From the NCBI RefSeq assembly GCF_006740045.1, contig NZ_AP019749.1, forward strand, positions 1,817,001-1,881,000: a stretch of 64,000 bases of DNA. The letters are read 5' to 3'. The translations under genes and the position numbers were made by a program. Shown in pieces: positions 42,541 through 59,168 of the stretch (position 1 is the stretch's first letter; each line of letters begins with the position of its first letter). The stretch comes from Comamonas terrigena NBRC 13299. Its GTDB lineage: Bacteria; Pseudomonadota; Gammaproteobacteria; Burkholderiales; Burkholderiaceae_C. Below the pieces are notes generated by a model. The model saw only the letters and a list, made by a program, of their open reading frames with translations, did not search any database and had not been told where the DNA came from.

Positions 42541-42577
42541 AAAGGCCCTGGCTGCGGACACAGCCAGGGCCTTTTTC
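42541..42577 (+). terminator. Terminator of the nap-ccm unit
   Basis: AAAGGCCCTGGCTG pairs perfectly with CAGCCAGGGCCTTT around a six-base loop, and T residues follow. It also lies just beyond the end of the converging oxygenase gene. Confidence 0.9.
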
Positions 42578-42693
42578 GCGGTGTTCACCCGCTTCACCGT
42601 GGGGGCGGCGCAGCCGCCCGGGGTTGCTTGCGTGTGCAGAGCGCTGCACCGTGCCAGGTAACACTACATCACACAGAGCCTGCTGAACAAGGT

Positions 42694-43806
42694 TCAGTAG
42701 GCGCTGGGCTTGGCTGTCTTGTCCAGCAGGGCAAATTGCGCCGGGTAGAACTTCTCCGCCACATCCAGGTGGGAGCGCACCCGGCCCTTGAGTGCATTGG
42801 TGCCGATGTGGCTGAACAAGGGGTTCAGCGGGTCGCTCTCAGGGCCACGTGCCTGCTGCGCCAGATGGGAGGGCAGGTCCAGCAGCGGCACTTCCTGGGC
42901 GTGCAGGCTGGGCGAGAAGAAATACGCGATCGAGTAGCGGCTGACGCCCGAGCGGGGAGACAGCACGCGGTGCACATTGGCGCGCAGATAGCCGTTGGTG
43001 GCCAGCTCCAGCATTTCGCCGATGTTCACCACAAAGGCGTTCTTGCGGGGCGGCACATCCAGCCAGCCTTGCGGGGTCTGCACCTGCAGCCCGCCCACCT
43101 GGTCCTGCAGCAGCAGGGTGAGCAGGCCTCCATCCTTGTGGGCTCCGACGCCCTGGTCGGACTGGCCCTGGGCCTGGCCGGGGTAGTGGATGATCTTCAG
43201 GCGGTTGTTGTGCGGCGGTGCCACCAGGGCGTTCAGGGCCGTGGCGGGCTGCTCCAGTGCCACCAGAAAGGCCTGCAGCAGGCGCTTGGCCACATCGCGC
43301 GTGGTGTCCAGCCAGGCCAGGATATCGCTTTGCAGCTGCGGCAGCTCGGCAGGCCACTGGTTGGGGCCTTGCAGGCCCCACCAGGCGGGCGTGTCGGCGG
43401 CTTGTGCCACGGGCTCCAGCTCTTCGCCGAAGTCGATCTGTTCGCGCAGGTCGGGCTGCAGGCGGGTGATTTCACCGCCCACACCGGTGTAGCCCCGGAA
43501 ATGGCGGGAGTGGTGGATGGCAATGCGCTGCTTCACCTCGGGGGGCAGGGCGAAGAACTGGCGGGCCACGGCTTCCAGCCGCTCGATCTGCTCGGGCGCA
43601 ATGCCATGCCCTTCCAGATAGAAGAAACCGATGTCGCGTGCAATCCGAGCCAGCCGGGCGTGGGCGGGCGTGTGCCGGGTGGAGTCGCCCAGCTCGGCCA
43701 GGTTGATGACCGGCAGGGAGTCCAGCGGGGTGTCCAGGGCGGAAAGGGCCTGGGCAGCATTCAGGGATGTGGTGGCGGGGCGAAGGGCTTGTGCAACGGT
43801 GCTCAT
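42694..43806 (-). CDS. 2-oxoglutarate/Fe(II) oxygenase, isopenicillin N synthase family
   Basis: A 370-residue non-haem iron oxygenase. The iron triad is His223, Asp225 (GAHKDGG) and His279 (NVHRV), and Arg290 in RYS would bind 2-oxoglutarate. The N-terminal DIOX_N part begins LPVINLAEL. It is the last gene of osmC-metY-oxygenase, overlapping metY by 4 bases. Substrate unknown; among sulfur genes, oxidation of an organosulfur compound or an amino-acid derivative is plausible but not shown. Confidence 0.87.
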   Translation of the reverse strand: MSTVAQALRPATTSLNAAQALSALDTPLDSLPVINLAELGDSTRHTPAHARLARIARDIGFFYLEGHGIAPEQIERLEAVARQFFALPPEVKQRIAIHHSRHFRGYTGVGGEITRLQPDLREQIDFGEELEPVAQAADTPAWWGLQGPNQWPAELPQLQSDILAWLDTTRDVAKRLLQAFLVALEQPATALNALVAPPHNNRLKIIHYPGQAQGQSDQGVGAHKDGGLLTLLLQDQVGGLQVQTPQGWLDVPPRKNAFVVNIGEMLELATNGYLRANVHRVLSPRSGVSRYSIAYFFSPSLHAQEVPLLDLPSHLAQQARGPESDPLNPLFSHIGTNALKGRVRSHLDVAEKFYPAQFALLDKTAKPSAY

Positions 43807-45200
43807 GAAGGCTCCTGGAGAAGTTCAAGGTCGGGTGTGGAGGCGGGCAAGGCCGTGGCGGTCTGCGCATGGCCCAAGGCCTGGCCCAGGTCGGCCAGCA
43901 GGTCGTGCGGGTGTTCGATGCCGATGGACAGGCGCACCAGCCCCGGGGCAATGCCCACCCGTGCCAGCTCGGCATCGGGCAGCAGGTGGTGGGTGGTTTC
44001 CGCCGGGATGGCGGCCAGGGATTTGCTGTCGCCGATGTTGACCAGGCGCAGAAACAGCTGCAGCGCGTCATAGAAGCGCTGGGCGGCGGGGCGGCCGCCG
44101 TGCAGCTCCAGGGACAGCAGCCCGGGCACGAGGCTGCCGCGCAGGTACTGCGTGGCATGGCCGTGGTCGGGATGGCCGGGGTGGGCCACGTGGTGGATGC
44201 GCGCCACCTGGGGTTGGGTCTGCAGAAAGTCCAGCACGGCCCGGGTGTTGCTGCTGATGCGTTCCATGCGCAGCGCCAGCGTTTCCAGCCCTTGCAGCAG
44301 CAAGAAAGCCGAATGCGCCGCCAGCGTGGCGCCGGCATTGCGCAGCATGACGGTGCGTGCACGGGCGACCAGGGGGGCATCGGGATAGCGTTCGGTGAAC
44401 ACCACCTGGTGAAAGGCCGGATCGGGGTGGGTCAGCTGGGGGTAGCGGTCGGACCGGGCCTGCCAGTCGAAGCGGCCGCCATCCACAATCAGCCCGCCCA
44501 TGGCCGTACCGTGGCCGCCGATGTACTTGGTGGCCGAGTGCACCACCACATCGGCGCCATGCTCCAGCGGGCGGATCAGCAGGGGCGTGGCGCTGGTGTT
44601 GTCCACCACTACGGCCACGCCCTGGGCATGGGCCAGCGCGGCAATGGCGGCGATGTCGGCGACATCGCCGGAAGGGTTGCCCACGGATTCCAGAAACACT
44701 GCCTTGGTCTGCGGCGTGAAGGCCGCGCGCAGGGCGTCGTGGTCGCCCCGGCCCACCACGGTGCTGGCAATGCCGCGGCCTTGCAGCACATGCACGACCA
44801 GGTTGTGGGAGCCGCCATACAGGGCCGAGGCCAGGATCACATGGTCCCCGGCCCGGGCCAGCGTGGCCAGGGTGATGTCGATGGCAGCCATGCCGGAGGC
44901 CACGGCCAGTGCGGCCGTGCCGCCTTCGAGCCGGGCGATGCGCTGCTCCAGCACGGTTTGCGTGGGGTTGCCGGTACGGGCGTAGATATGGCCTTCCTGC
45001 ACCAGGTCGAACAGTTCGGCGCCGTGTTGCGCATCCTCAAACAGAAAGGATGTGGTCTGGTAGATGGGCACGGCCGCGCTGCGCTGGTGCTGCAACCCGT
45101 CATAGCCGGCGTGCAGCACGACGGTGTCGGGCTGCCATGCGGGTGTGGGCGCTGGCACAGGCGCTGGCGGCTGCCGGCCCTGGGCAGGTGCGGTGCTCAT
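43803..45200 (-). CDS. metY: O-acetylhomoserine aminocarboxypropyltransferase (MetY-like)
   Basis: PLP enzyme that makes homocysteine from O-acetylhomoserine and sulfide, or a close relative acting on another thiol. The 465-residue chain has Lys225 in SATKYIGGHG as the PLP site, PIYQTTSF, YARTGNPT and VVDNTSATPLL, the usual MetY/cystathionine gamma-synthase motifs. About 22 Pro/Ala-rich residues precede the normal start. It sits between osmC and an oxygenase gene with 4-base overlaps. A direct-sulfhydrylation role fits a sulfur-scavenging operon. Confidence 0.9.
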   Translation of the reverse strand: MSTAPAQGRQPPAPVPAPTPAWQPDTVVLHAGYDGLQHQRSAAVPIYQTTSFLFEDAQHGAELFDLVQEGHIYARTGNPTQTVLEQRIARLEGGTAALAVASGMAAIDITLATLARAGDHVILASALYGGSHNLVVHVLQGRGIASTVVGRGDHDALRAAFTPQTKAVFLESVGNPSGDVADIAAIAALAHAQGVAVVVDNTSATPLLIRPLEHGADVVVHSATKYIGGHGTAMGGLIVDGGRFDWQARSDRYPQLTHPDPAFHQVVFTERYPDAPLVARARTVMLRNAGATLAAHSAFLLLQGLETLALRMERISSNTRAVLDFLQTQPQVARIHHVAHPGHPDHGHATQYLRGSLVPGLLSLELHGGRPAAQRFYDALQLFLRLVNIGDSKSLAAIPAETTHHLLPDAELARVGIAPGLVRLSIGIEHPHDLLADLGQALGHAQTATALPASTPDLELLQEPS

Positions 45201-45766
45201 GCGGGCTGCGCCTCCTTGGCGGCAGGGGCTGCGGCCTGGGGGGCCGGCTGGGCGCGCACCAGCGTGCCCACGACCTGCTGCGGGTTGCGCAGCAGGTTCA
45301 GAATGGGGCAGTTCTTCTCGACCGCCGCGAACAGCTCGTTCAGCTGCGCATCCGAGGCGCTGGAGGCGACCTGGACTTCGTACTGGATGTTGTGCGGCCA
45401 GATGGGGGTGGCCTCGTGGCCGGGGTGGCCGCCGCGCGGATCGATGGTGCCGCGCACATCCACTTCGATGCTGTCCAGCGGCACCTGCAGCAGCGCAGCC
45501 TGGATTTCAAAGATGTGCGTCACGCAGGTGCCCAGCACGCCCAGTTGCAGCTCGGGCGAGGAGGGGCCCAGGTTGAAGCCGGCAAAGTCGTAGGGGCTGT
45601 CGCTGATGACCTGGTGCTCGCGGATGCGCAGGCGGCGGATGCCGCTGCGGCCTTCGGCCGAGACATGGGCGTGCAAGGACGTGGCCTGGGCACTGCCGTC
45701 GGCAATGCGTTGCTGGCGAGCCAGTACGGCGCGGCGTTTGTGGGACAGATAGTCGTTCAGGCTCAT
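45197..45766 (-). CDS. OsmC family peroxide-handling protein
   Basis: A 189-residue OsmC/Ohr-fold protein; the family reduces organic or sulfur peroxides by two cysteines. Cys81 (LGTCVTH) and Cys153 (KNCPILN) are visible. ATG 45766 follows ACGGAG and is preferred to the frame start at 45802. It is the first gene of the operon with metY and the oxygenase. An operator-like motif lies 55-87 bases upstream. Confidence 0.87.
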   Translation of the reverse strand: MSLNDYLSHKRRAVLARQQRIADGSAQATSLHAHVSAEGRSGIRRLRIREHQVISDSPYDFAGFNLGPSSPELQLGVLGTCVTHIFEIQAALLQVPLDSIEVDVRGTIDPRGGHPGHEATPIWPHNIQYEVQVASSASDAQLNELFAAVEKNCPILNLLRNPQQVVGTLVRAQPAPQAAAPAAKEAQPA

Positions 45767-45820
45767 GGTGTGCTCCGTTGGAATGCCGCCATGGTCTGCC
45801 AAGCCTGCACCGCAAGGCTA

Positions 45821-45853
45821 CGAAGCTTTTTGTGTTTGCATATGCGCTTTTTG
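45821..45853 (-). promoter_or_regulatory. Operator-like motif, site A (before osmC)
   Basis: Read toward osmC: AAAGCGCATATGCAAA, then AAAGCTTCG after a short gap. The core lies 73-81 bases before the osmC ATG. It matches site B (before metQ) at 25 of 33 positions. Confidence 0.7.
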
Positions 45854-45882
45854 CTGTGCGGCCGTCGCCTGGGCGCGGCGGT

Positions 45883-45914
45883 GTTTTGCGCATATGGATA
45901 CACGCTTTCGTTCG
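45883..45914 (+). promoter_or_regulatory. Operator-like motif, site D (before the sulfonate-type SBP gene)
   Basis: Read forward: TGCGCATATGGATACACG, then TTCG at the same spacing as in site A. The core lies 83-91 bases before the ATG at 45979. Sites A and D face away from each other in the same divergent promoter region. Confidence 0.65.
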
Positions 45915-45978
45915 TTGCCGCAGCGCGGTCTGGCGTCCTATCGTGCTGCCACTTTTCACAGTTTCCTGGAGGGAGCAC

Positions 45979-47004
45979 ATGGACGAATTTCTGCCCACGG
46001 CGCACGGCACGCCCTGGAACCGCCGCCATTTCCTGGGAGCGGCTGCGGCCGCTGGTGCAGCCGGTGCCGCAGGCCTGCTGCCGCTGGCGGTGCATTCGCA
46101 GCCGCGCAAGATCACCCTGGCCTGGAGCCAGGCCAGCTTCTGCCAGGTGCCGGTGCCGATTGCGCTGGAGCGCGGCCTGTTCGAGAAGAACGGCCTGCAG
46201 GTGGAGGTGCTGAACTGGGGCGGTTCTGCCGACCAGTTACTGGAGGCGCTGGCAACCGGCAAGGCCGAAGTGGGGGTGGGCCTGATCCACCGCTGGGTCA
46301 AGCCGCTGGAAGCCGGGCTGGACGTGAAGATCGTGGGCAGCGTGCACGGCGGCTGCCTGCGCCTGGTGGGGGTCAATGCGGCCGGGGTGACGCGCGATGT
46401 GAAGTCGCTCAAGGGCAAGGTGATCGGAGTGGCCGACCTGAACAGTCCGGCCAAGCAGTTCTACGGCATCCACCTGGCCAAGCTGGGGCTGGACATCGAC
46501 AAGGATGTGGAGTGGCGGGTCTACCCTGCCGACCTGCTGGATGTGGCGGTGAAGAAGGGCGAGGTCCACGCCATTGCCGATGGCGACCCGAATCTCTACC
46601 TGATCGAAAAGCGCAACCCCGGCGTGTTCACCGAACTGGGCAACAGCGCCACCGGGGAATATGCCGAGAAGATCTGCTGCGTGCTGGGCGCGGGCGCCAA
46701 GTTCGTGCGCGACGACCGCAAGAGCGCTGCCGCGGTGGTGCGTGCATTGGCGCAGGCATCGGACTATGTGGCCGAGAACCCCAACGAGTCTGCCAAGATC
46801 TTCGCCAAGTACACGCCCAAGTTCGAGGTGCCTGATCTGCAGCGCCTGATTGCGGAGCTGACGTACAAGCACCATCCGCACAACAGCCGTCTGCAGGATG
46901 AGGTGCGTGAATTCGCAGCCGATTTCCGTTCGGCCGGCATTCTGAAGAAGAGCACCGACCCGGCACGCTTTGCGCGCCATATTACCCAGGATGTGCTGTC
47001 ATGA
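45979..47004 (+). CDS. SsuA/TauA-like ABC transporter substrate-binding protein
   Basis: Periplasmic binding protein of 341 residues with a Tat-type signal (RRHFLGAAAA). The mature part resembles the nitrate/sulfonate/taurine group: ALERGLFEKNGLQVEVLNWGG, LATGKAEVGVG, LKGKVIGVADLNSPAKQF. ATG 45979 follows GGAGGGAG; the longer frame from 45778 is not used. It is the first gene of a transporter operon that ends with a cytochrome c gene. The sulfur neighbours suggest a sulfonate or other organosulfur ligand, which is inference. Confidence 0.86.
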   Translation: MDEFLPTAHGTPWNRRHFLGAAAAAGAAGAAGLLPLAVHSQPRKITLAWSQASFCQVPVPIALERGLFEKNGLQVEVLNWGGSADQLLEALATGKAEVGVGLIHRWVKPLEAGLDVKIVGSVHGGCLRLVGVNAAGVTRDVKSLKGKVIGVADLNSPAKQFYGIHLAKLGLDIDKDVEWRVYPADLLDVAVKKGEVHAIADGDPNLYLIEKRNPGVFTELGNSATGEYAEKICCVLGAGAKFVRDDRKSAAAVVRALAQASDYVAENPNESAKIFAKYTPKFEVPDLQRLIAELTYKHHPHNSRLQDEVREFAADFRSAGILKKSTDPARFARHITQDVLS

Positions 47005-48092
47005 GTGACGCCACCGTACTTCTGGAGCTGGCGCCGCAGGCCGGCGCGCCGATCCTGCAGCCCGCCACGCCCACGGCCGCACCTTCGACCACGGCCACCG
47101 CCGTGGCTGCGGATCCGGCACCTTCTTCGGCGGAGCAGGGTGTCTGGCGCCAGGGGCTGGTGGCGGCCCTGGCCTGGCTGCTGCTGGGCGCGCTGACCTG
47201 GTGGTGGCCCAACAAGGAAATCGGCTTCAGCGACTGGGCATACACCACGGAGTTTGCCGTGCTCACGGCCGCGCTGGCTGTGCTGCTGGCCGCGCTGGCC
47301 CTGGCGGGCGAGCGCGCGGGCCGGGTGCTGCGCTGGCTGCGGCCGGCGGGTGCCTGGCTGATCGCTGCGCCGGCGCTGCTGGCAGTGTGGGAGGTGCTGA
47401 CGGCCAAGCTGGGCGTGCTGCCGCCGCCATTCTTTGCGCCGCCGCAAAGCCTGCTGGAGGTCTACCTGGACGATTCCGCCCGGCTGGGGCTGTCGGTGGC
47501 GCATTCGCTGCGGCTGCTGGTGCACGGCATCGTGATCGGCAGCCTGGTGGGTTTTGTCACCGGCGTGTGGGTGGGCTGGTCGCGCGTTGCGGGCTACTGG
47601 GTCCATCCCTTGCTGCGCTTTCTGGGACCGGTTCCGGCATCGGCACTGCTGCCACTGGCATTCTTCTTTGCCCCCAGCAGCTACAGTGCCGCGGTGTTCC
47701 TAGTGGCATTGGCCACCTTCTTCCCGGTGGCGGTGCTGACCTGGTCCGGGGTGGCCAATGTCAGCAAGAGCTATTACGACGTCGCCCGCACCCTGGGTGC
47801 ATCGGAATGGTTTCTGGTGCTACGCGTGGCGATTCCGGCAGCGCTGCCCCAGGTGTTTGTGGGACTGTTCATGGGGCTGGGCGCGTCGTTCTCGGTGCTG
47901 ATCACGGCGGAGATGATGGGCGTGAAAGCGGGCCTGGGCTGGTACCTGCAGTGGGCCCAGGGCTGGGCGGCCTACGCCAATATGTACGGCGCGCTGCTGG
48001 TGATGGCGGTGTTGTGCTCGGGCTTGATCACCCTGCTGTTCACCGTGCGTGACCGGCTGCTGGGCTGGCAGAAAGGAACCGTGAAATGGTGA
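47001..48092 (+). CDS. SsuC-like ABC transporter permease with extended N-terminus
   Basis: Permease of 363 residues, about 100 longer than SsuC. The C-terminal 250 residues hold the usual helices and EAA loop (ARTLGASEWFLVLRVAIP). The first 115 residues are an Ala/Pro/Thr-rich cytoplasmic stretch plus two extra helices (about 54-70 and 84-101). The start overlaps the SBP gene as ATGA. The extra helices could dock the cytochrome encoded at the end of the operon, which is speculation. Confidence 0.86.
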   Translation: MSDATVLLELAPQAGAPILQPATPTAAPSTTATAVAADPAPSSAEQGVWRQGLVAALAWLLLGALTWWWPNKEIGFSDWAYTTEFAVLTAALAVLLAALALAGERAGRVLRWLRPAGAWLIAAPALLAVWEVLTAKLGVLPPPFFAPPQSLLEVYLDDSARLGLSVAHSLRLLVHGIVIGSLVGFVTGVWVGWSRVAGYWVHPLLRFLGPVPASALLPLAFFFAPSSYSAAVFLVALATFFPVAVLTWSGVANVSKSYYDVARTLGASEWFLVLRVAIPAALPQVFVGLFMGLGASFSVLITAEMMGVKAGLGWYLQWAQGWAAYANMYGALLVMAVLCSGLITLLFTVRDRLLGWQKGTVKW

Positions 48093-48892
48093 GCGCTGCA
48101 AATGCAAGTGCCAGCAATGCGCAAGCGCTGGAGAACCCGGAGTCCCAGACCGGGGCACGCATCGATATCGCCCAGGTGTCGCACCAGTTTGCCCAGCTGC
48201 CGGTGCTGAGCGATGTCAGCCTGCAGGTGCAGCCGGGCGAGTTCGTGGCCCTGCTGGGGCCCAGCGGTTGCGGCAAGTCCACGCTGCTGCGCCTGGTGGC
48301 CGGGCTGGAGCCACCGCGCAGCGGCCACATCACGCAGGATGGCCAGCCCATCACGCGGCCCGATCCTTCGCGCATCGTGGTCTTCCAGGACCCGACCTTG
48401 TTTCCCTGGCGCACGGTGCGCGACAACGTGGCCCTGGGGCTGCAGGCGCGCAAAGTGCCCAAGGCACAGCATGCCCGGGTGGACGAGGCGCTGGCACTGG
48501 TGGGGCTGTCCGAGTTTGCGGACAGCTACCCGCACCAGCTCTCGGGCGGCATGGCCCAGCGTGCCGCACTGGCGCGTGCCCTGGTGAATGAGCCGCAACT
48601 GCTGATCCTGGATGAGCCGCTGGGCAAGCTCGATTCGCTGACCCGGCTGACCATGCAGGCCGAGCTGCTGAAACTATGGCAGCGCGCAGGCTTTTCGGTG
48701 CTGCTGGTGACACACGATGTGGAAGAGGCCTTGTTCCTGGCCAACCGGGTGGTGGTCTTCTCCGACCGTCCGGCCCGCACCGTGGCCGAGCTGGCCGTGG
48801 ATCTGCCCTATCCGCGCCACCGCACGCAGCCACGCTTTGTGGAGCTGCGCCAGCAGGCGCTGCGCCATCTGGGACTGGGTGATGCGACCTGA
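48086..48892 (+). CDS. SsuB-like ABC transporter ATPase
   Basis: A 268-residue ATPase of the nitrate/sulfonate/taurine group. Walker A is GPSGCGKS (58-65), signature LSGGMAQRAALARAL, Walker B LLILDEP and VTHDVEEALFLANR, all intact. It overlaps the permease gene by 7 bases and the cytochrome gene by one (TGATG). Confidence 0.9.
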   Translation: MVSAANASASNAQALENPESQTGARIDIAQVSHQFAQLPVLSDVSLQVQPGEFVALLGPSGCGKSTLLRLVAGLEPPRSGHITQDGQPITRPDPSRIVVFQDPTLFPWRTVRDNVALGLQARKVPKAQHARVDEALALVGLSEFADSYPHQLSGGMAQRAALARALVNEPQLLILDEPLGKLDSLTRLTMQAELLKLWQRAGFSVLLVTHDVEEALFLANRVVVFSDRPARTVAELAVDLPYPRHRTQPRFVELRQQALRHLGLGDAT

Positions 48893-50073
48893 TGCCTGAG
48901 CGGATTGCAGACGCACCCTGGCTGTTCTGGCTGTTGGAAGCGGTGCACCGGTGCCAGGTGGGCCTGCTGCAGCTGTGGCATGCGCTGGGCCTGAGCGGCG
49001 AGGTGGACGGCCAGCCTGCCTGGCCCTGGGCACAGCGCATGGCGGGCGAGCGCCTGCTGCAGGACCTGGGCCAGGCACGCCAGCTGGTCTGGAGTCTGGC
49101 GGCCGTGGCCGCCGTGCTGGTGCTGGTGGGCGTCGCGGTACTGTGGCGGCGCGGCCGGCCCTGGCTGCTGGCCGGCGCCTTGCTGGCCCTGGTGCTGGCG
49201 CCCTGGCCGGAACGCCAGGTGGTGCTGGCATCGGCGGTGCCCACCAGTTTTCACCGCAACCCTCTGCCTTTTACCGATGCGGCGATCGTCCAGGGCGCGG
49301 CGCTCTACCAGCGGCAGTGCCTGCGCTGCCATGGCGAAGCGGGCAACGGGCAGGGCCCGGATGCGGCAGACCAGCCGGTCTGGCCGCCCAGTTTTTCCGG
49401 CCCGCTGCTGTGGCGCCGTGCGGAAGGAGAGCTGCTGCAGGCGGTGCGCCATGGCATGCAGGATGCGCAGGGGCGCACGACCATGCCTGGCTTTGCCGCG
49501 CAGCTGTCGGTTCCCGAGAGCTGGGCGTTGCTGCATTTTCTGCGTGCCCAGGCGGCGGGACAACTGCTGCGTGCCACGGGCAGTTGGGCCCAGCCCATTG
49601 CCTTGCCCGACATGCCGTTGCGCTGCCACCGCCCGGACAAGCTGCAGGTGCGCGACTGGCAGGGCCAGCGCCTGCGGGTGGTCAGCAGCGCCCGCGTGCA
49701 GGATGTGGCGCCGGACCCGCGCATGGTGACGCTGTGGCTGCCCCAGCCGGGGCAGGATGCTGCGCACCTTCCAGACCATGTGGATTGCGCCGTTACCTCG
49801 GGGGCGACCGCGTTGCAGGCACTGGGCTGGATCAATGCGGGCGAATCCGTGCGCGAGGTGCAGTTGCTGGCGGACAAGGCCGGTTGGCTGCGGGCGCGCA
49901 ACGGCCGGGGCACGGAAAGTTGGAGCGATGACGATCTGCTGTGCCGCACCACGGATGCGCCGGCCGCTGCCCGGGGGCAGACCGAAGAGGACGGCTTGAC
50001 CCGTATTCTGCGGCGCATGGATGCCGAGCCGCTGGGCTATGTCCAGGGTGGGCGGGTGCACGGCGGGCGCTGA
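48892..50073 (+). CDS. Membrane-anchored monoheme cytochrome c in the ABC-transporter operon
   Basis: A 393-residue protein with no N-terminal signal peptide but two helices (about 67-85 and 91-105). A class I cytochrome c domain follows: CLRCH (143-147) and likely axial Met198 in TTMPGF. A C-terminal domain of about 160 residues (230-393) I do not recognise; it has Cys in LRCHRP and DLLCRTT. It is fused translationally to the ATPase gene (TGATG), so it belongs to the transporter operon. Electron partner unknown; oxidation of a sulfur product such as sulfite would need such an acceptor, but no such enzyme is adjacent. Confidence 0.82.
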   Translation: MPERIADAPWLFWLLEAVHRCQVGLLQLWHALGLSGEVDGQPAWPWAQRMAGERLLQDLGQARQLVWSLAAVAAVLVLVGVAVLWRRGRPWLLAGALLALVLAPWPERQVVLASAVPTSFHRNPLPFTDAAIVQGAALYQRQCLRCHGEAGNGQGPDAADQPVWPPSFSGPLLWRRAEGELLQAVRHGMQDAQGRTTMPGFAAQLSVPESWALLHFLRAQAAGQLLRATGSWAQPIALPDMPLRCHRPDKLQVRDWQGQRLRVVSSARVQDVAPDPRMVTLWLPQPGQDAAHLPDHVDCAVTSGATALQALGWINAGESVREVQLLADKAGWLRARNGRGTESWSDDDLLCRTTDAPAAARGQTEEDGLTRILRRMDAEPLGYVQGGRVHGGR

Positions 50074-50117
50074 ACGCGGCCCACGTACCGCAACCACGGT
50101 CGCATTGACTGCGGATG

Positions 50118-50156
50118 AAAAAAAGCAGTCCTGCCGCGGTGCAGGACTGCTTTTTT
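50118..50156. terminator. Bidirectional terminator between the cytochrome gene and cysB
   Basis: A perfect 16-bp stem (50119-50134 with 50141-50156, GCAGTCCTGC half) has A on one side and six T on the other. It serves both converging genes. Confidence 0.9.
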
Positions 50157-50176
50157 GAGGAGGGAGGGACAGGGTT

Positions 50177-51112
50177 TCAGCCGTCGCTGTCTTCGTTCAG
50201 CTTCTGGCGCACCACATCCGGCGTCAGCGTGGGCACAAAGCTTTCGATGAAGTGGTAGGCATAGTCGCGCAGCCAGATGCCCCGGCGCACGGCAATGCGG
50301 GTGAGGTTGATCTCGAACAGGTGGCGGGCATCGATGGCGCGCAGCAGCCGGTCCCGTTCGGGGTCGAATGCGATGGAAGCCACGATGCCGATGCCCATGC
50401 CCAGCTCCACATAGGTCTTGATCACGTCGGCATCCATGGCAGTCAACACCACCTCCGGCGCCAGGCCTTCGCGTGCAAAGGCCTCGTCAATGTGGGCGCG
50501 CCCGGTGAAGCCATGCTCGTAGGTGATGATGGGGTGGCGGGCCAGATCCTCCAGCGAAATCGGCGTGCTCTGCTGCAGCAAAGGGTGATCGGGCGGGACG
50601 ATCACGCTGTGGGACCAGCGGTAGCCGGGTAGGGTGACCAGTTGCTCGTAATCGGCCAGGGCTTCGGTGGCCACGCCGATGTCGGCTTCCCCGGTCAGCA
50701 GCATGTCGGCAATCTGCTGGGGAGAGCCCTGGCGCAGGTGCAGCGTGACGCCGGGGTAGATCTGGCGGAAGTCCCGCACCACGGCAGGCAGGGCATAGCG
50801 GGCCTGGGAGTGGGTGGCCGCGACGTAGAAGACGCCGGTGTCCTTTTCCTTGAAGTCCTTGCCCGCGTTCTTGAGGTTGCCGGCCTCCAGCAGCAGGCGG
50901 TCGATGATGGGCAGCAGGGTCTTGCCGGGCGTGGTCAGCCCGGTCAGCCGTTTTCCGGCGCGGGTGAATATCTCGACCCCGAGCTCTTCTTCCAGTTCAC
51001 GGATCTGCCGGCTGATGGCCGGCTGGGAGGTGAACAGCACGGATGCCACTTCCGTCAGGTTGTAGTTGTTGCGGGCGGCTTCACGGATGGAGCGCAGTTG
51101 CTGGAAATTCAT
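50177..51112 (-). CDS. cysB: CysB-type LysR regulator
   Basis: LysR-family activator of sulfur assimilation, 311 residues. The N-terminal HTH with NYNLTEVASVLFTSQPAISRQ and TPAGK-like TTPGKTLLP is characteristic of CysB/Cbl. The effector domain contains ATHSQARYALP and ITYEHGFTGR, also CysB-like. It probably senses O-acetylserine or a sulfur signal. It follows the VOC gene on the same strand by 30 bases and is the likely regulator of the neighbouring sulfur genes. Cbl rather than CysB cannot be excluded. Confidence 0.9.
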   Translation of the reverse strand: MNFQQLRSIREAARNNYNLTEVASVLFTSQPAISRQIRELEEELGVEIFTRAGKRLTGLTTPGKTLLPIIDRLLLEAGNLKNAGKDFKEKDTGVFYVAATHSQARYALPAVVRDFRQIYPGVTLHLRQGSPQQIADMLLTGEADIGVATEALADYEQLVTLPGYRWSHSVIVPPDHPLLQQSTPISLEDLARHPIITYEHGFTGRAHIDEAFAREGLAPEVVLTAMDADVIKTYVELGMGIGIVASIAFDPERDRLLRAIDARHLFEINLTRIAVRRGIWLRDYAYHFIESFVPTLTPDVVRQKLNEDSDG

Positions 51113-51142
51113 GGTGAGGGCTCCACGGTCTGTAATGGTTTC

Positions 51143-51502
51143 TCAGTGGGCGGGTTCCAGAAACTCCAGCTGGTTGCCGGCTGGGTCTTTGATGTAGATC
51201 TGCTGCGCCGGCTGGTCGGGGTGGCTTTCGATGAAGGCCAGGTCAAAGGCATGCAGGCGCTGCTTCAGATCGCCAATGCCTTGCACGTTGAACGCCACAT
51301 GCTGCGAGGGTTTGCGGCCCGTGGCCCCGGTTTCCGGTGTGAAGCACAGGCGCTGCTCGCCCATCTCGAACTGCAGCAGCTGCTTGGTTTCGGGGGAATG
51401 CAGTTCGTGGGCGCCCAGCACCGTGGCATAGAAAAAGCGGATGGCTTCCTTCGAATGGGCCGGAAACTGAAAATGGATATGGTTGACCGAGGTGATGATC
51501 AT
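51143..51502 (-). CDS. Small VOC (glyoxalase-fold) protein
   Basis: A 119-residue protein with one vicinal-oxygen-chelate module pair. Its pattern HIHFQFPAHSKEAIRFFYATVLG ... IYIKDPAGNQLEFLEP ends with the metal-ligand Glu region typical of the fold; His7 or His9 may be the first ligand. It probably dimerises to form its site. It shares a transcript with cysB. Substrate unknown. Confidence 0.82.
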   Translation of the reverse strand: MIITSVNHIHFQFPAHSKEAIRFFYATVLGAHELHSPETKQLLQFEMGEQRLCFTPETGATGRKPSQHVAFNVQGIGDLKQRLHAFDLAFIESHPDQPAQQIYIKDPAGNQLEFLEPAH

Positions 51503-51735
51503 GTGCGTGCGAAGCCCTTGCGGCCCGGGACGATCTGCCGGGTTGCAACAAGCCTGGTGTATTCAAAGGGAAGGGGAAGCGGGGCCAGCGTTTGCTGGGC
51601 CTACCGATGGCAGAAACCCGTGGGGTCTGACGGGGCGGTCAAGGAGCCCGTCAGGGACAGGGAAATACCGTGCGCTGGAGTAGGTCAGTGGCGCTCATCA
51701 ATGCCTCGCCCGGGAAGAAAGTGGGTATGGCATTC

Positions 51736-51764
51736 ACTATAAAAAAAGACTCTTATAAATACAA
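51736..51764 (-). promoter_or_regulatory. Promoter of the VOC-cysB unit
   Basis: Read on the reverse strand: TTGTAT (51764-51759), a 17-base spacer and TATAGT (51741-51736). Upstream of it lies very AT-rich DNA of the kind CysB-type proteins bind, so autoregulation is plausible. Confidence 0.68.
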
Positions 51765-51926
51765 TAAATGTTTTATTACTTTTTAATTACCTAAAGATAT
51801 TTAGATTACTGAATATGCCTGCAGTGCTGTTTGTGCTGGGTGCTCTGTCGTGGGTGATTGGCAATGCAGCGCCTGAGGATGGGGCCGTGTGCAGGACAAG
51901 GCCGGTCGTGCGGGCGCCCATGTGAA

Positions 51927-51971
51927 ACCGCCAGCGACCCGTGCCACAAATGGCCGGGGTCGCTGGCGGTG
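51927..51971 (-). terminator. Hairpin after metI
   Basis: ACCGCCAGCGACCC pairs with its complement at 51958-51971. On the reverse strand only a short T stretch follows, so termination may be weak or Rho-aided. Confidence 0.5.
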
Positions 51972-52001
51972 GGATGTCGGGCCGCCTCGGCGGCCGCGGT
52001 G

Positions 52002-52655
52002 TCAATGCCGGTGGTTGACCTTGCGCGACAGGGTTTCGCCGGCGAACTGCACGATGGACACCAGGGCCACCAGGATCACGATGACTTCGAACATCACCCG
52101 GGTTTCATAGCGTTCGTAGCCGTAGCGGATGGCCAGGTCGCCCAGGCCGCCCGCGCCCACGGCGCCGGCCATGGCCGAGGCGTTGACCATGGCGATCACG
52201 CTCACCGTCATCCCTCCGATGATGCCGGGCAGGGCTTCGGGCAGCAGCACATGGCGCACGATGTGCCAGCGCTTGCAGCCCATGGCGCGTGCGGCTTCCA
52301 CCAGACCTGGATCCACATCGTTCAGGCTGACCTGGGCGATGCGGGCATAGAAGGGGATCAGGTTGACCGACAGCGGCACCACGGCCGCCCAGGTGCCCAG
52401 GGTGGTGCCGACGATGCTGCGGGTGACCGGCAGCAAGGCCACCAGCAGAATGATGAAGGGAATGGCACGGAAGATGTTCACCGTCACCGACAGCCCTTTG
52501 TAAAAGCGCGGCCGGGTGTACAGGCCACGCGGGCCGGTGATGGTGAGCACGATGGCCAGCAGCAGCCCCAGGCCGATGGCGATCAGCGAGGAGGTGGCCA
52601 CCATCAACAGGGTTTCGGCAAAAGCCTGCAGGTATTTGTCAATCGGCGCGGACAT
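52002..52655 (-). CDS. metI: MetI-like methionine ABC transporter permease
   Basis: A 217-residue permease with five or six helices and the EAA loop [26 protein letters not shown], typical of MetI. ATG 52655 begins [19 protein letters not shown]; the longer frame lies inside metN. It overlaps the end of metN by 17 bases. Confidence 0.94.
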
Positions 52656-53712
52656 AGCCCAGCAGCTCCAGGTGGTCGGCGCCGGTGGAGTGGCGCAATG
52701 CATCAAGGGAAGGCAGGCCGGTGGCTGGTGTGGACACCAGCAACTGGCCCAGTGAATGGCCGCGCAACCGGTCCAGCCCGCCATGCAGCAAGGTGGCCTG
52801 GCTGCCCAATGCGGCCAGGGCCTGCAGCGGCAGGCCTTGGGGGCGCTGTGCACCGGCAAAGCGCAGGCTGAGCACGGCGCGGTCGGCGCTGCTGCTGGGT
52901 TGGGGCAGCAGCTGGCGGGCCAGATCGGGGGGCAGGCCTTGCTGCAGCGGCTGCAGCAGCGCTTGCGTGGCGGCGGCCTGCGGTGCGCCGAAGACGCGCC
53001 AGACCTCGCCGATTTCCTGCACCTGGCCCTGGTCCAGCACCAGCACACGGTCGCAGATGGCGCGGATCACCGCCATGTCGTGGGTGATCAGCACCACCGT
53101 CAGGCGCAGCTGGCGGTTGATGTCGCGCAGCAGGGACAGGATGGACTGTGTGGTTTCCGGGTCCAGCGCGCTGGTGGCTTCGTCGCACAGCAGCACTTCG
53201 GGCCCGTGCACCAGGGCACGGGCAATGCCGACACGCTGCTTCTGGCCGCCGGACAGCTGTGCCGGGTAGGCCTGGCCCTTGTCCGACAGGCCGACCAGGG
53301 CCAGCAGTTCGTCCACCCGGGCCTTGATGATGGCCGGGCGTTCACCGGCCACACGCAGCGGCAGGGCCACGTTTTCGCGCACGGTCTTGGCGGACAGCAG
53401 GTTGAAGTGCTGAAAGATCATGCCGATGCGCCGGCGCAGCGCGACCAGGGCGTTTTCGTCCAGCTGCGCCGGGTCCACGCCGTGGATCTGCACCCGGCCT
53501 TCGGAAGGGGTCTCGAGCGCATTGATGGTGCGCAGCAGCGTGGATTTGCCGGCGCCGCTGCGGCCGATGATGCCGAAGACCTCGCCATGGTGGATGTCAA
53601 AGTTCACCGCCGACAGCGCCTGGACCTGGCTGCTGCGGCCGGCGTAGGACTTGCCCACGCCGTCGAACACGATGTGCGGTGCCAGTTGCACCGGAGGAGG
53701 GAGGGTGGTCAT
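52639..53712 (-). CDS. metN: MetN-like methionine ABC transporter ATPase
   Basis: ATPase of the methionine importer, 357 residues. Walker A GRSGAGKS, the MetN-typical [35 protein letters not shown] and [13 protein letters not shown] are seen. The C-terminal 100 residues correspond to the methionine-sensing NIL domain, which lets internal methionine inhibit transport. It lies 8 bases after the second metQ gene. Confidence 0.95.
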
Positions 53713-53720
53713 GCAGTCGC

Positions 53721-54548
53721 TCAGAACGCCGGAATCAGCGTGCCTTCGTACTTGGTTTCGATGAAGCGGCGGATGGCTTCGGTCTGGAAGGATGCCACCA
53801 GGGCCTTGACCCAGGGCGCGTCCTGGTCCTTGCTGCGCACGGCAATGATGTTGACGTAGGGGTTGTGCTCGCGCTTTTCCACAGCGATGCCGTCGCGGGT
53901 GGCGATCAGGCCGACCTGGTAGGCAAAGGTGTTGATGACGGCGGCGGCGTCCAGATCGGGCACCGAGCGGGCCAGGACGTTGGAGGCGGCTTCCACCAGC
54001 TGCAGCTGGCGAGGGTTGGCGGTGACGTCTGCCAGCCCTGCGGTGCCGGAGAAGGGGTCGAACCCGTCGCGCAGCTTGATCAGCCCCTGGTCGCGCAGGA
54101 TGACCAGGGCGCGGGTCTGGTTGCTGGGGTCATTGGGAATGCCCACCCGGGCCTTGGCCGGCAGATCCTGCAGGCGCTTGTGCTTGTTGGAGTAGAAGGC
54201 GATCGGGGCAATCAGCGTGTTGCCTGCGGAGACGATCTGGTAGCCGCGCTGGCGCACCTGGTCTTGCAGAAAGGGCAGGTGCTGGAAGGCGTTGGCTTCC
54301 AGGTCGCCGTTGTTCAGCGCCTCGTTGGGGCTGACCGCGCCGCCCAGAACGACCAGCTGCACATCAAGGCCCTTGGCCTTGGCGGCCTTGGCCACTTCGG
54401 CCCACAGCTCTTCACCGATGCCGCCACGGATGCCCACGCGCACGCGCTGGGCCGCCTGGGCGGAAGGGAGTTGCAGCAAGGCAGCGGCGCCTGTGCCCAG
54501 CAGGGCGGCCAGTGCGCCGCGGCGCGAAGTTGGGGAAAAATGAATCAT
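53721..54548 (-). CDS. MetQ-like substrate-binding protein, second copy
   Basis: A 275-residue NlpA/MetQ-type periplasmic binding protein with the core [15 protein letters not shown] and [15 protein letters not shown]. coli MetQ is a lipoprotein, but this one has no lipobox and shows a Tat-like start ([11 protein letters not shown]), so it should be soluble. It is about the same length as, and very similar to, the neighbouring copy. The two may bind different ligands, for example methionine and an oxidised or D-form. Confidence 0.92.
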
Positions 54549-54559
54549 GGATGGCTCTC

Positions 54560-55387
54560 TCAGAACGCGGGAATCACCGAGCCCTGGTATTTCTGCAGGA
54601 TGAACTGGCGCACCGGTTCGGACTGGTAGGCGGCCACCAGCTGTTTGGCCCAGGGGGTGTCCTGGTCCTTGGCGCGCACGGCAATGAGGTTGGTGTAGGG
54701 GTTGCGCTCGCGCTTTTCCACGGCAATGCCGTCGCGGGTGGCGACCAACCCCGCCTGGTAGGCAAAGCTGTTGACGATGGCGGCGGCGGCCAGGTCATCC
54801 AGCGAACGGGCCAGCACCACCGAGGCCACTTCCACCAGCTCCACCTTCTGGCGCAGCGCGGTCACGTCGGCCAGGGAGGCGGTGCCGGTGAAAGGGTCGA
54901 AGCCAGGCTTGAGGTCCAGCACGCCCTGGTCGCGCAGCACCACCAGGGCGCGGGTCTGGTTACTCGGGTCGTTGGGGATGCCCACGCGCGCGCCGGCAGG
55001 CAGGTCGGCTAGGCGCTTGTACTTGCGGGAATAGAAGGCAATGGGGGAGATGTAGGTGTCACCTGCCGATACCAGCTGGTAGCCGCGCTGCTGGTTCTGG
55101 TCGCGCAGGAAGGGCTGGTGCTGGAAGGAGTTGGCTTCCAGATCGCCGTTGTGCACGCCTTCGTTGGGGCTGACCGAGCCGCTGAGCACCACGGGCTTGA
55201 CGTTCAGGCCGCGTTCCTTGGCGACCTTGGTCACCACCTCCCAGATTTCCTCGTCCACACCGCCGCGCACGCCCACGCGGATCAGGGCCGGGGTGGTGGT
55301 GGCGGCCGTGGCCAGGGCGGAGAAGGTGCCGGCCGCAGCAGGCAGCAGGAAGGCAGCAGAGGTGCGCAGAAAGTCGCGTTTGTTCAT
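54560..55387 (-). CDS. metQ: MetQ-like substrate-binding protein, first copy
   Basis: A 275-residue MetQ-type binding protein, paralogous to the next gene and sharing its motifs ([29 protein letters not shown]). The signal peptide has a KRDFLR start and no lipobox. It leads metQ-metQ-metN-metI. Operator site B lies 63-95 bases upstream, overlapping the end of the VOC gene. No SAM riboswitch fits in the 75-base gap. Confidence 0.92.
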   Translation of the reverse strand: MNKRDFLRTSAAFLLPAAAGTFSALATAATTTPALIRVGVRGGVDEEIWEVVTKVAKERGLNVKPVVLSGSVSPNEGVHNGDLEANSFQHQPFLRDQNQQRGYQLVSAGDTYISPIAFYSRKYKRLADLPAGARVGIPNDPSNQTRALVVLRDQGVLDLKPGFDPFTGTASLADVTALRQKVELVEVASVVLARSLDDLAAAAIVNSFAYQAGLVATRDGIAVEKRERNPYTNLIAVRAKDQDTPWAKQLVAAYQSEPVRQFILQKYQGSVIPAF

Positions 55388-55449
55388 GGTGGATCCGGTC
55401 GGTGGGATGGAATGGGAGGCAGTATCCCGAGCCACCGGGGCCCGGGCAA

Positions 55450-55482
55450 CGAAGCTTTGCGGCTATGCAAATGCGCTTTGCG
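55450..55482 (-). promoter_or_regulatory. Operator-like motif, site B (before metQ)
   Basis: Read toward metQ: AAAGCGCATTTGCATA, then AAAGCTTCG, matching site A at 25 of 33 positions. The core is about 80-89 bases before the metQ ATG and covers the stop codon of the VOC gene. Confidence 0.7.
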
Positions 55483-56296
55483 CATGAGCACCGGGGTGCG
55501 CGGCGGGATGAGCGGAGGTGCCGGTGCCGGGGTAGGCGATCAGCTCCAGCCGGGTGCCATGGGTGTTGCCATGCACCACGGGCCCCAGAGGGTTGGCCTG
55601 CGTGGTGTGCAAGGCGATGGCAAACGGGCCTTCGCCTTGCAGGGCCAGCCGCTGGGCGGCTTCAGGGCTGGCGCTGGCGGATTCCAGCTTCAGCACGGTG
55701 CCGCCCAGCTGCAGGCTGGCAGCGCCTTCGGCAGGGACCGGGGCATCCGTCAGGCCCAGCAGGGCACGGTAGCGTTCCAGTGTGGCGGCCACGTCGTGCA
55801 CGGCCACGTGCAGCTGGGCGACGCCCTGCACGCCATTGGCGTGCTCACGCACCGGGCCTTCAGGCACGCGCAGGGCGCGGGGTGTGACATCGCCGCACAG
55901 GAAAGGCAGATCGGGCGTGGCCGGGCGGGCGTTTTGCCAGCGCAGCTCCACCCCGTCGGGGCGCAGCCGCCCGCCATCGACCGGGGGCTGGTAGGCCAGG
56001 CCGCGCGACAGCGCCTGTGCCACCACCTGCGGCGTGGTGCCGGGCAGCAAGGCAAAGTCCACGATGCCGGGGCCAAAGCGGCTGAGCTTGGGCCACCAGG
56101 GGTGGGCTTCTTCCGGGCCTTTCCAGGCGATCAACTCAAAGTAGGAGCCGTCCTGGAACACCACCAGTGCGTTGTGGGTGGCGCGGCCCGGGTGGTCCCC
56201 GCCCGGGGTGACGGTGAATCCCAGATTGCGGTAGTCGTGGATGGCGGTGTGCAGATCGTGCACGGCAATCACGATGTGGTCCAAAGGCAGTGACAT
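55463..56296 (-). CDS. Glyoxalase-like (VOC) protein, two-module
   Basis: A 277-residue protein with two VOC modules, beginning LPLDHIVIAVHDLHTAIHDYRNLGF. It fits the glyoxalase-like family 3 type (PF13468-like). His7 and Glu54 (YFELIAW) could be metal ligands in the first half, with LHVAVHD in the second. The C-terminal 20 residues are Ala/His/Pro-rich. It lies between metQ and the divergent family-5 importer and shares the motif-bearing promoter region. Substrate unknown. Confidence 0.83.
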   Translation of the reverse strand: MSLPLDHIVIAVHDLHTAIHDYRNLGFTVTPGGDHPGRATHNALVVFQDGSYFELIAWKGPEEAHPWWPKLSRFGPGIVDFALLPGTTPQVVAQALSRGLAYQPPVDGGRLRPDGVELRWQNARPATPDLPFLCGDVTPRALRVPEGPVREHANGVQGVAQLHVAVHDVAATLERYRALLGLTDAPVPAEGAASLQLGGTVLKLESASASPEAAQRLALQGEGPFAIALHTTQANPLGPVVHGNTHGTRLELIAYPGTGTSAHPAAHPGAHAQSAFA

Positions 56297-56355
56297 GGGA
56301 GGCTTTCTCTGAGGTGGGAAAGCGCCATGCTCGCGCGGCTGCGGGCGGGCGGCAA

Positions 56356-56388
56356 ATACGGAATACGGCTTTGGTTATGCGGTTTGTG
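56356..56388 (-). promoter_or_regulatory. Operator-like motif, site C (before VOC gene)
   Basis: Read toward the VOC gene: CACAAACCGCATAACCAAA (56388-56370), matching the first 19 positions of site A at 15. The core lies 79-86 bases before the ATG at 56296. The second half of the motif is weak. Confidence 0.5.
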
Positions 56389-56407
56389 CCGGGCGCTGCA
56401 TATCTGC

Positions 56408-56440
56408 TGGCCGCATATCCAAGTGCGAAAACAGAGGTTC
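56408..56440 (+). promoter_or_regulatory. Operator-like motif, site E (before family-5 SBP gene)
   Basis: Read forward: GGCCGCATATCCAAG, then AAAACAGAGGTTC. CGCATAT and CAA match the core of site A; the second half is only roughly similar. The core lies 118-126 bases before the SBP start, farther than in the other four sites. Confidence 0.45.
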
Positions 56441-56536
56441 AAAAAGGCGAGCGGAATTCCTAGCATTCAGGCCATCTGGAAGGTTTCCCTTGGAGTCTTC
56501 CGACTCTTGCATAACAGCGCCTCAATGGCATGAAGG

Positions 56537-58213
56537 ATGGATGGTCTCGTGCAACTGCAACGCAAAAACAAACGTCAATGGTGGTGGCTGGCAGCCATGG
56601 CTGCGGGAGTCTGGGTGGCGGGATGCTCCCAGCAAAGCAGCACTTCGGAAGGCGCATCGGCAGGTGCTGCCGTACAGGGAGGGGAGCTGGTCTATCTGGA
56701 GCAGCAGGCCCACACCAATCTGTATCCGCCGGCCGGCGGCTTCTATCCCAACGGCGGTGTGCTCAACCAGATCACCGACAAGCTGACCTACCAGGACCCG
56801 AAGACGCTGGAAATCCAGCCCTGGATCGCCGAGTCCTGGGCCATCAATGACCAGGCCACGGAGTTCACGTTCAAGCTGCGTTCCGGCGTGACGTTCTCGG
56901 ATGGCACGCCGCTGGATGCGGCGGCCGTGGCCAAGAACTTCGACACCTACGGTCTGGGCAACAAGGCGCTGAAGCTGCCGGTGTCCGAAGTGATCAACAA
57001 CTACCAGCGCAGCGAGGTCGTAGACCCGCTGACGGTGAAGTTCTATTTCAGCAAGCCGTCGCCGGGGTTCCTGCAAGGCACGTCGGTGATCGGCTCGGGC
57101 CTGGTGTCGCTGGCCACGCTGGCACGGCCTTTCGAAGAGCTGGGTGATGCCACGCGCATCATCGGCTCCGGCCCCTTTGTGGTGGAGCGGGAGACACTGG
57201 GCAAGGAGCTGCTGTTCAAGGCGCGTGCCGACTACAAGTGGGGCCCTGCCAAGCATGCGCACCAGGGCCGTGCGCGCCTGGACAGCATCCGTCTGGTGGT
57301 CACGCCCGAGGACAGCGTGCGCATTGGCGCGCTGCTGTCGGGCCAGGCGGGCCTGATCCGCCAGGTGCAGGCCTATGACGAGAAGCGCGTGCAGGAACAG
57401 AACTTCCAGATCTACGCGCCTTCCACCCGCGGGGTGAACAACAGCATTGCCCTGCGCCCGGACAACGCCCTGGTGGCCGATCTGCGCGTGCGCCAGGCGC
57501 TGCTGCATGGGACGAACACCGCCGAAGTGGTGCAGACCCTGTTCTCGGCCAACTACCCGCAGGCCACTTCGGTGATCGCCAAGTCCGCCGCAGGGTACGT
57601 GGACCTTTCTGCCGATCTGAAGTTCGATCCGCAGCAGTCGCAGCGCCTGCTGGACGAAGCCGGCTGGACCTTGGGGGCCAACGGCCTGCGGCAGAAGGAC
57701 GGTCAGGAGCTGGTGCTGACGGCCTATGAATCCCTGCCGCAGCCGCAGAACAAGGAAACCCTGCAGCTGGTGGCGCAGCAGTGGGGCAAGCTGGGGGTCA
57801 AGCTCAATGTGCTGGCCGGTGATGCGGGCAGCAAGACGCTGGACAGCCTGGATCCGGCCAAGACCCCGGTCGCGCCGGGCATGGTGGGGCGCGCAGATCC
57901 GGATGTGATCAAGAGCAACTACTACCCCACGAACCGCAATGTGCTGCTGCAAAAAGGCGGTGTGAGCCAGAAGGTCAACAGCTTTGTGGATGACAAGCTC
58001 AACGGCCTGCTGGACGCGATTGCGGCCGAGACCGACGCCGCCAAGCGCCTGCAGCTTACCGGGGACGTGCAGCGCTATTTGATTGCCCAGGCCTATGTGA
58101 TTCCGATCTTCGAGGAGCCCCAGGCCTTTGCCGGTGCCACGACGGTCAAGGATGTCGGGTTCGAGGCCGTGGGCCGACCCAGCTTCTATGCCACCTGGCT
58201 GGCCAAGCCCTAA
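56537..58213 (+). CDS. Family-5 (dipeptide-type) substrate-binding lipoprotein, KPN_01854-like
   Basis: Periplasmic binding lipoprotein of 558 residues with lipobox VAGC (Cys30). SBP family 5 features include WIAESWAINDQATEFTFKLRSGVTFSDGTP and a late QRYLIAQAYVIPIF. From memory it resembles a TIGRFAM family named after Klebsiella KPN_01854, which occurs next to a luciferase-like monooxygenase as here. The start is not certain: ATG 56537 has a poor binding site. It leads the operon SBP-permease-permease-ATPase-monooxygenase-peroxidase. Ligand unknown. Confidence 0.88.
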   Translation: MDGLVQLQRKNKRQWWWLAAMAAGVWVAGCSQQSSTSEGASAGAAVQGGELVYLEQQAHTNLYPPAGGFYPNGGVLNQITDKLTYQDPKTLEIQPWIAESWAINDQATEFTFKLRSGVTFSDGTPLDAAAVAKNFDTYGLGNKALKLPVSEVINNYQRSEVVDPLTVKFYFSKPSPGFLQGTSVIGSGLVSLATLARPFEELGDATRIIGSGPFVVERETLGKELLFKARADYKWGPAKHAHQGRARLDSIRLVVTPEDSVRIGALLSGQAGLIRQVQAYDEKRVQEQNFQIYAPSTRGVNNSIALRPDNALVADLRVRQALLHGTNTAEVVQTLFSANYPQATSVIAKSAAGYVDLSADLKFDPQQSQRLLDEAGWTLGANGLRQKDGQELVLTAYESLPQPQNKETLQLVAQQWGKLGVKLNVLAGDAGSKTLDSLDPAKTPVAPGMVGRADPDVIKSNYYPTNRNVLLQKGGVSQKVNSFVDDKLNGLLDAIAAETDAAKRLQLTGDVQRYLIAQAYVIPIFEEPQAFAGATTVKDVGFEAVGRPSFYATWLAKP

Positions 58214-58225
58214 GCGGAGGCGCGC

Positions 58226-59164: not shown

Positions 59165-59168
59165 CGCG

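Follow-up and report, generated by a model that had tools for sequence, protein, structure and literature searches.

LysR-type activators usually act through a recognition site combined with an activation site, and for such activators an operator that ends inside the -35 element is in its normal place. The sites of enteric CysB, a member of this class, are long and AT-rich. For SsuR of Burkholderia cenocepacia, studies ascribed to Iwanicka-Nowicka (2007) and Lochowska (2011) reportedly found that a stretch of about 44 bp lying ahead of the -35 element or across it is enough for binding, and the likeness among SsuR recognition sites is said to have been called limited. The gene order in that species is sbp-cysT-cysW-cysA-ssuR (PMC7970998). 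Here we describe a stretch of 64,000 nt from Comamonas terrigena NBRC 13299 (NZ_AP019749.1; the window, within which site positions are numbered), in which five operator-like sites, A to E, stand before five units of sulfur-related genes. We consider it highly probable that an SsuR-group LysR activator uses these sites as its operators, that each operator is fused to a promoter of the sigma-70 type, and that the sites define an organosulfur regulon.

An earlier note on this DNA had proposed that the five sites form a single sulfur regulon, and that proposal is supported by the matrix ranking, the genome scan, the recurrence of the motif before the sulfur genes of relatives and its conservation, all presented below. 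The positions it gave for the five sites agree with the sequence, each site is oriented toward its gene, and sites A and B are identical at 25 of 33 letters. Site A (33-nt frame, 45818..45850, minus strand; core CGCATATGCAAACAC with the distal element TTCGTA) faces osmC-metY-oxygenase, while site D (45885..45917, plus strand) faces a sulfonate-type importer. Site B (55447..55479, minus strand), which overlaps the VOC gene by the final bases at its 3′ end, faces metQQNI. Site C (56353..56385, minus strand), whose distal half is weak, faces the VOC gene, and site E (56408..56440, plus strand), the weakest of the five, faces a family-5 importer. The C of CGCAT stands 80 bases before the start codon at site A, 88 at B, 85 at C, 90 at D and 125 at E, and four of the five cores thus do fall within the 73-91 bases stated in the note. 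For sites C and E the note had recorded the core as kept, which is correct but incomplete: the distal element is also kept in both, though only in part, and the position of the -10 box is retained. Within the window, a second GCATAT lies 15 bp before that of site E in the same highly conserved block (56390-56433), and might represent an additional half-site.

What computation establishes here is the motif with its spacing, the place of the -10 box, the classes of target and the co-occurrence with SsuR-type genes. Our main matrix spans 33 nt and was built from 15 sites of other genomes, i.e. the 20-row genus matrix minus five rows that were window sites or their close counterparts. It ranks the window sites as D (39.7 bits), B (36.2), A (32.9), C (28.7) and E (17.3), followed by a sixth place at 7.5 bits. 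In 100 first-order Markov sequences of 64 kb, the best score has a mean of 6.9, a 99th percentile of 16.0 and a maximum of 21.5 bits. Sites A-D are therefore beyond chance, and the score of site E, taken alone, is no more than marginal. Among the 15 rows are some from upstream of distant homologues of genes that lie behind sites D and B. When three such rows, from before importer- or MetN-type homologues, are also removed, the five sites still top the window (B 38.5, D 36.9, A 35.4, C 29.6 and E 18.8 bits); the next place, at 10.3 bits, is the opposite strand of site D, the null of the main matrix being the only one run.

Across the whole genome (4.67 Mb), the 13-nt core alone gives 40 matches with at most one mismatch, 35 of them with one, against 20 for its reversed control, and it becomes specific when the distal element is added. 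A 27-nt pattern, drawn partly from the window sites themselves, has 6 matches with at most three mismatches, four of which are A, B, D and C, against 3 for the control. With a 28-nt two-part pattern and the same tolerance there are 10 matches, five of them sites A-E, against 3. Thus random positions do not score equally with the sites, which occupy ranks 1-5 of the matrix and half of the ten genome matches. Two of the other matches coincide, being the opposite strands of a single place that precedes a second VOC gene of the Glyoxalase_3 type and, after it, a DUF2817 gene. Another precedes a rhodanese gene and then a hexapeptide-transferase gene, which resembles a serine acetyltransferase when its translation is read and for which Pfam supports only Hexapep; the remaining two are at 2494441 and 2844997. 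Exact core matches at 178020 and 2747246 were discarded, as they lie inside long open frames without evident sulfur relation. A further exact 13-nt core (G000:C1:3386257-3386269) lies shortly before a taurine-type ABC importer in the opposite orientation; its score with the long matrix is only 13.0 bits and no clear distal element accompanies it, so that it may only tentatively be a site of the regulon.

Conservation extends from the operator into the promoter. When 19 non-redundant sites (of 58) were aligned, strong columns appeared outside the pattern, e.g. A at position 50 (0.74) and T at position 54 (0.89). The loci L035-L110 and L204-L224 supplied 62 non-redundant sites (of 75), 50 of which have A-N3-T at offset 50, against a mean of 2.5 over 62 offsets with the peak included. 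The operator-promoter consensus is CGCATAWSSAWRNSCGNWWWNCTTCGTTG, then about 20 nt, then a YANNAT -10 box. The operator ends inside the -35 element, because the TTCGTT runs into it, its last TT opening the -35, and the -10 box follows 17 (sometimes 18) bp further. The operator thus abuts the -35 element with normal -10 spacing, as at promoters activated by LysR-type proteins, and its conserved core is found some 12-26 nt before the -35.

In the window, the -10 boxes of B, C and E are exactly at the predicted place and those of A and D one base further. On the minus strand, the putative promoter A has the box GACCAT (45791..45796) with a spacer of 18 to the -35 at 45815-45820; promoter B has GATACT (55421..55426) with a spacer of 17 to 55444-55449, the GATAC being one base further in the related loci L031 and L032; and the putative promoter C has GAGCAT (56327..56332) with a spacer of 17 to 56350-56355. 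On the plus strand, the putative promoter D has TATCGT (45939..45944) with a spacer of 18 to the -35 at 45915-45920, and promoter E has TAGCAT (56461..56466), also present in L031, with a spacer of 17 to 56438-56443.

The sites and the motif are both conserved in relatives. All five sites are present in Comamonas terrae (L031), where A scores 35.5, B 19.2, C 13.2, D 40.8 and E 18.4 bits; site B is conserved in L032 as well, and site E belongs to a conserved block. Among 53 genomes of the genus, our own included, the pattern CGMATAWSSAWRNNCNNNNNNNTTCGTT, which site D matches without mismatch, has 50 matches with at most one mismatch in 24 genomes and none for its reversed control (46 matches in 23 of 52 without our own genome). 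With at most two mismatches, there are 149 matches against 21. The loci of 30 of the 50 matches were examined (L141-L170, with L160 being site D), many of which are mutual counterparts and hence not independent cases. Of these, 27 stand at a gene recognisable as sulfur-type from its translation, with family checks on a sample. The target types are SsuA-family proteins, TauD, luciferase-type monooxygenases, MetN-type proteins, rhodaneses, YdeN-type serine hydrolases and osmC/importer pairs as in the window, and at some of the loci the gene is divergently paired with that of a Bug-type binding protein. At the other three (L150, L153 and L161) the motif precedes a family-3 binding protein of unclear substrate. 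At L152 the osmC side lies beyond the contig end and only the opposite importer gene is visible. Cysteine dioxygenase was dropped as a target, since its gene lies opposite a site and not behind one. As with A/D of the window, the motif occurs as divergent pairs in G001, G002, G033, G043 and G052, with the two copies about 70-93 bp from each other.

A matrix trained on the genus (20 of 41 sites after removal of near-copies, window sites included) finds 70 matches above 16 bits in 76 loci (L035-L110), whereas ten permuted matrices average 0.4. These loci were picked because they hold a relative of the regulator, and some of them are Comamonas records. Their targets include, by reading, sbp, the regulator genes themselves, and TauD and SsuA types. 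At the level of the order, 250 genomes hold 30 matches against 6 for the control, 25 of them outside the genus. Behind at least 10 of these 25 a sulfur gene was recognised (L204, L205, L207, L208, L211, L212, L214, L224, L225 and L228), the SsuE of L224 and the Sbp of L228 being above their model cut-offs; the other matches are unclear or probably due to chance. In L033, a named record whose regulator is 87% identical to ours, a diverged site of 25.0 bits precedes a metQNI-type operon. We also examined 8 of 70 listed matches on named plasmids or chromids, where both Cupriavidus SsuA-like loci carry a site. These records gave mixed results across genera, as detailed below, so it may be in Comamonadaceae and their near kin that the motif is at its strongest.

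The earlier note had named CysB, encoded between the sites, as the natural regulator. The gene in question (50177..51112, minus strand) stands as the best candidate; the name does not. Its product carries PF00126 and PF03466 (the LysR helix-turn-helix and substrate-binding domains) and passes the CysB-subfamily model NF009327 (457.9 bits, cut-off 402), and it misses both the CysB equivalog NF009326 (387.4, cut-off 436) and the Cbl equivalog NF009324 (388.1, cut-off 491). The genome encodes two regulators above the subfamily cut-off. The second (G000:C1:2159022-2159957; 453.8 bits) is only 49% identical to the first and reads like the CysB of Burkholderiales. The window regulator is 69-76% identical to relatives outside Comamonas among the best 80 of 567.

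SsuR is the name that we assign to the window gene as its best candidate, and it is supported by the SsuB- and CysA-type genes that adjoin relatives of the regulator. When the neighbouring ATPase was typed at seven relatives' loci, the SsuB model was best in L045, L047, L110, L035 and L054 (348-369 bits, below the cut-off of 395), and the CysA subfamily model was passed in L056 and L053. The regulator gene lies directly behind the SsuB-type ATPase gene in L045, L047, L110 and L035, and an SsuD above its cut-off is found near it in L045; a same-strand ATPase gene within 200 bp upstream of the regulator was counted at 5 of 60 loci scored. These neighbours recall the sbp-cysT-cysW-cysA-ssuR cluster of B. 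cenocepacia. In the window, the regulator gene adjoins other organosulfur genes. An AT-rich block at about 51700-51830, shared with L031, lies upstream of a small Glyoxalase-domain gene (51143-51502) and the regulator gene; blocks like it score weakly in L032, L033 and L176, and it could be the regulator's own control site.

The motif also follows the SsuR-type gene in its distribution. An SsuR-type protein, taken within the genus as at least 70% identical, is present in 41 of the 53 genomes, and the motif with at most one mismatch occurs in 24 of these and in none of the 12 genomes that miss the protein (p=2e-4, a value weakened by the non-independence of related genomes). The association becomes weaker among genomes of at least 4 Mb, with 22 of 36 against 0 of 4 (p=0.03). 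With at most two mismatches, the 41 genomes hold 139 matches against 13 for the control, and the 12 without the protein hold 10 against 8. The CysB-like protein, in turn, is found in 50 of the 53 genomes (those missing it, G006, G013 and G033, are all incomplete), and 11 of the 12 genomes that lack an SsuR type have it. Across the order, a relative of the regulator at E≤1e-105, a limit of our own choice that detracts from the result, is present in 18 of 23 motif genomes against 83 of 250 overall (p=4e-6), and in 16 of 21 motif genomes when the genus is left out (p=3e-5). In three other families (G260, G276 and G122), the distances between a site and the regulator gene are 66, 72 and 703 bp, and these sites lead into ssuE or sbp.

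An unlikely reader of the sites, though the most serious competitor, is the CysB-like protein, either by itself or sharing them equally with SsuR. Both proteins pass one and the same subfamily model, and one cys operon of Burkholderia is reported to be under joint regulation by CysB and SsuR (PMC3633348), so that CysB could share the sites. Such a reader fits poorly with the absence of the motif from all 12 genomes that lack the SsuR type, 11 of which keep the CysB-like protein, and with the promoters of our own sbp and cysI genes, which are without strong facing sites. A third regulator that travels with ssuR would produce the same distribution, as co-occurrence does not tell apart genes whose gains and losses coincide. 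We regard it as improbable, given that the sites lie beside ssuR genes in several families and before some ssuR genes themselves, and that the SsuR-type gene is the sole regulator seen among the annotated genes of the five units, the window being annotated in part. That the sites reflect chance or plain promoter likeness, with no operator involved, is scarcely credible. The twofold excess of the core alone over its reversed control and the position of site E near the 99th percentile of the null would agree with it, whereas the counts of 50 against 0 in the 53 genomes and 70 against 0.4 in L035-L110 do not, and neither does a conserved core that lies upstream of the -35. For A-D as a set chance is contradicted by the counts, and only site E could still be due to it.

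Several further observations weigh against operators read by an SsuR-type activator. The genome's own inorganic sulfate genes, with cysI and sbp named by reading their translations, are not clearly included in the regulon: the site of 15.2 bits adjoining cysI points away from the gene, that of sbp1 is weak (6.9 bits), and the matrix scan gave no site above 6 bits at sbp2. The gene of the window regulator has no strong site of its own, the best being 2.9 bits. In 17 of the 41 genus genomes with an SsuR type there is no match with at most one mismatch, and in G031, G035 and G040, whose regulators are 85-88% identical, there is none with at most two either; likewise, the best site in L034 (regulator 85% identical) is 10.6 bits. 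Among the plasmid and chromid records, the SsuA-like loci of Burkholderia (0 of 2) and Variovorax (0 of 1) and the tauD-like loci (0 of 2) are without a site, and one Comamonadaceae record has 9.5 bits before a CysB-family gene. Nevertheless, the presence of the sites in L031 and of the motif before the sulfur genes of other relatives runs contrary to a lack of conservation, and an SsuR-type reader is the explanation that we favour.

For that SsuR-type reader, we infer the binding, the activation and the sulfur signal. Under a shortage of preferred sulfur, the sites would be bound by the SsuR-type product of the gene at 50177-51112. The recognition half would span about -61 to -47 and the distal half would fall near -40, in the usual LysR geometry. 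The bound protein would recruit RNA polymerase and turn on the capture of organosulfur compounds. The proposed regulon would comprise the importers behind D and E, methionine import, OsmC-MetY-oxygenase and the VOC proteins, and elsewhere in the genome the rhodanese operon and the second VOC operon.

The genes behind site A, all on the minus strand, encode an OsmC-like protein (45197..45766; PF02566), a MetY-type O-acetylhomoserine sulfhydrylase (43803..45200; TIGR01326 505.8 bits, cut-off 495.1) and a 2OG-Fe(II) oxygenase (42694..43806; PF03171 and PF14226). Behind site D, on the plus strand, lie the genes of an SsuA-family/NMT1 substrate-binding protein (45979..47004; TIGR01728 76.5 bits, below the cut-off of 163.5, and PF09084 in the longer frame), a permease (47001..48092; PF00528) and an ATPase (48086..48892; PF00005). 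The fourth gene of this sulfonate-type ABC importer operon (48892..50073, plus strand; PF13442 and PF00034) encodes a cytochrome-c-domain protein of 393 aa, an odd partner for an importer, which also neighbours this importer in L031 (69%) and L086 (45%). The unit behind site B (52002..55387, minus strand) is metQ1-metQ2-metN-metI, in which both MetQ proteins match the TIGR00363 family below its cut-off, and MetN and MetI, conserved in L031, were named from their position and by reading the translation. The two tandem MetQ-type genes (53721-55387) both align to one MetQ gene in relatives, with identities of 91% and 69% in L031 and 89% and 68% in L032, which makes the pair look duplicated, or gained later, in the window genome. 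Site C is followed by the VOC gene (55463..56296, minus strand; Glyoxalase_3, PF13468), and the first importer gene behind site E (56537..58213, plus strand) encodes a family-5 substrate-binding protein (TIGR04028 866.6 bits, cut-off 468.5). A riboswitch or known RNA leader was dropped from consideration, since an Rfam scan of window positions 42000-62000 gave no match at the gathering score.

A literature search by title and the start of the abstract, in which subscription papers were thinly covered and regulon databases lay outside, gave no description of the operator. The sharp operator with its fixed promoter spacing and the extended list of targets appear to be new. On balance, we lean toward the view that a sharp and previously unrecognised operator-promoter code underlies the SsuR organosulfur regulon in Comamonadaceae and other Burkholderiales. 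In that case the code would add genes that are normally not classed with sulfur metabolism and would represent unrecognised pathways of organosulfur scavenging, namely TIGR04028 family-5 importers, Glyoxalase_3 VOC proteins with DUF2817, OsmC-MetY-2OG oxygenase and the cytochrome-bearing sulfonate-type importer. A LysR operator that can be searched as a pattern would allow the genes of sulfur starvation to be listed directly in Comamonadaceae and their relatives, and functions to be proposed for importers and for VOC and oxygenase enzymes of unknown substrate. Furthermore, with an SsuR-type protein in place of CysB as the likely regulator, a different knockout and a different growth condition become relevant.

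Among the known systems, the methionine regulons of MetR, MetJ, SahR and SamR resemble this one in that MetQ-type uptake genes can be among their targets. According to the published account, the SahR motif is a 20-bp palindrome, that of SamR a 24-bp palindrome and the MetJ sites tandem repeats, while the MetR regulons of beta-proteobacteria mostly consist of metE and metR only (PMC4239095). These regulators were dropped as candidates, since the window motif is unlike theirs as judged from those published descriptions and not from a matrix comparison. Enteric CysB and Cbl share the domain layout of the window regulator, with the CysB structure 1al3 (PDB) aligning over residues 1-303 (E 1.3e-92) and the Cbl structure 2fyi over residues 89-303; however, the window regulator falls below the CysB and Cbl equivalog cut-offs, and its proposed sites, unlike those of enteric CysB, are not long and AT-rich. 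The system probably works like the SsuR branch of the CysB/Cbl systems, and probably is that branch. With SsuR of B. cenocepacia it has in common a CysB-subfamily regulator and organosulfur and sulfate-uptake targets, whereas the window gene sits in an organosulfur island, and in place of the reportedly limited likeness among SsuR sites, the sites described here follow a sharp two-part consensus at a fixed spacing from the promoter.

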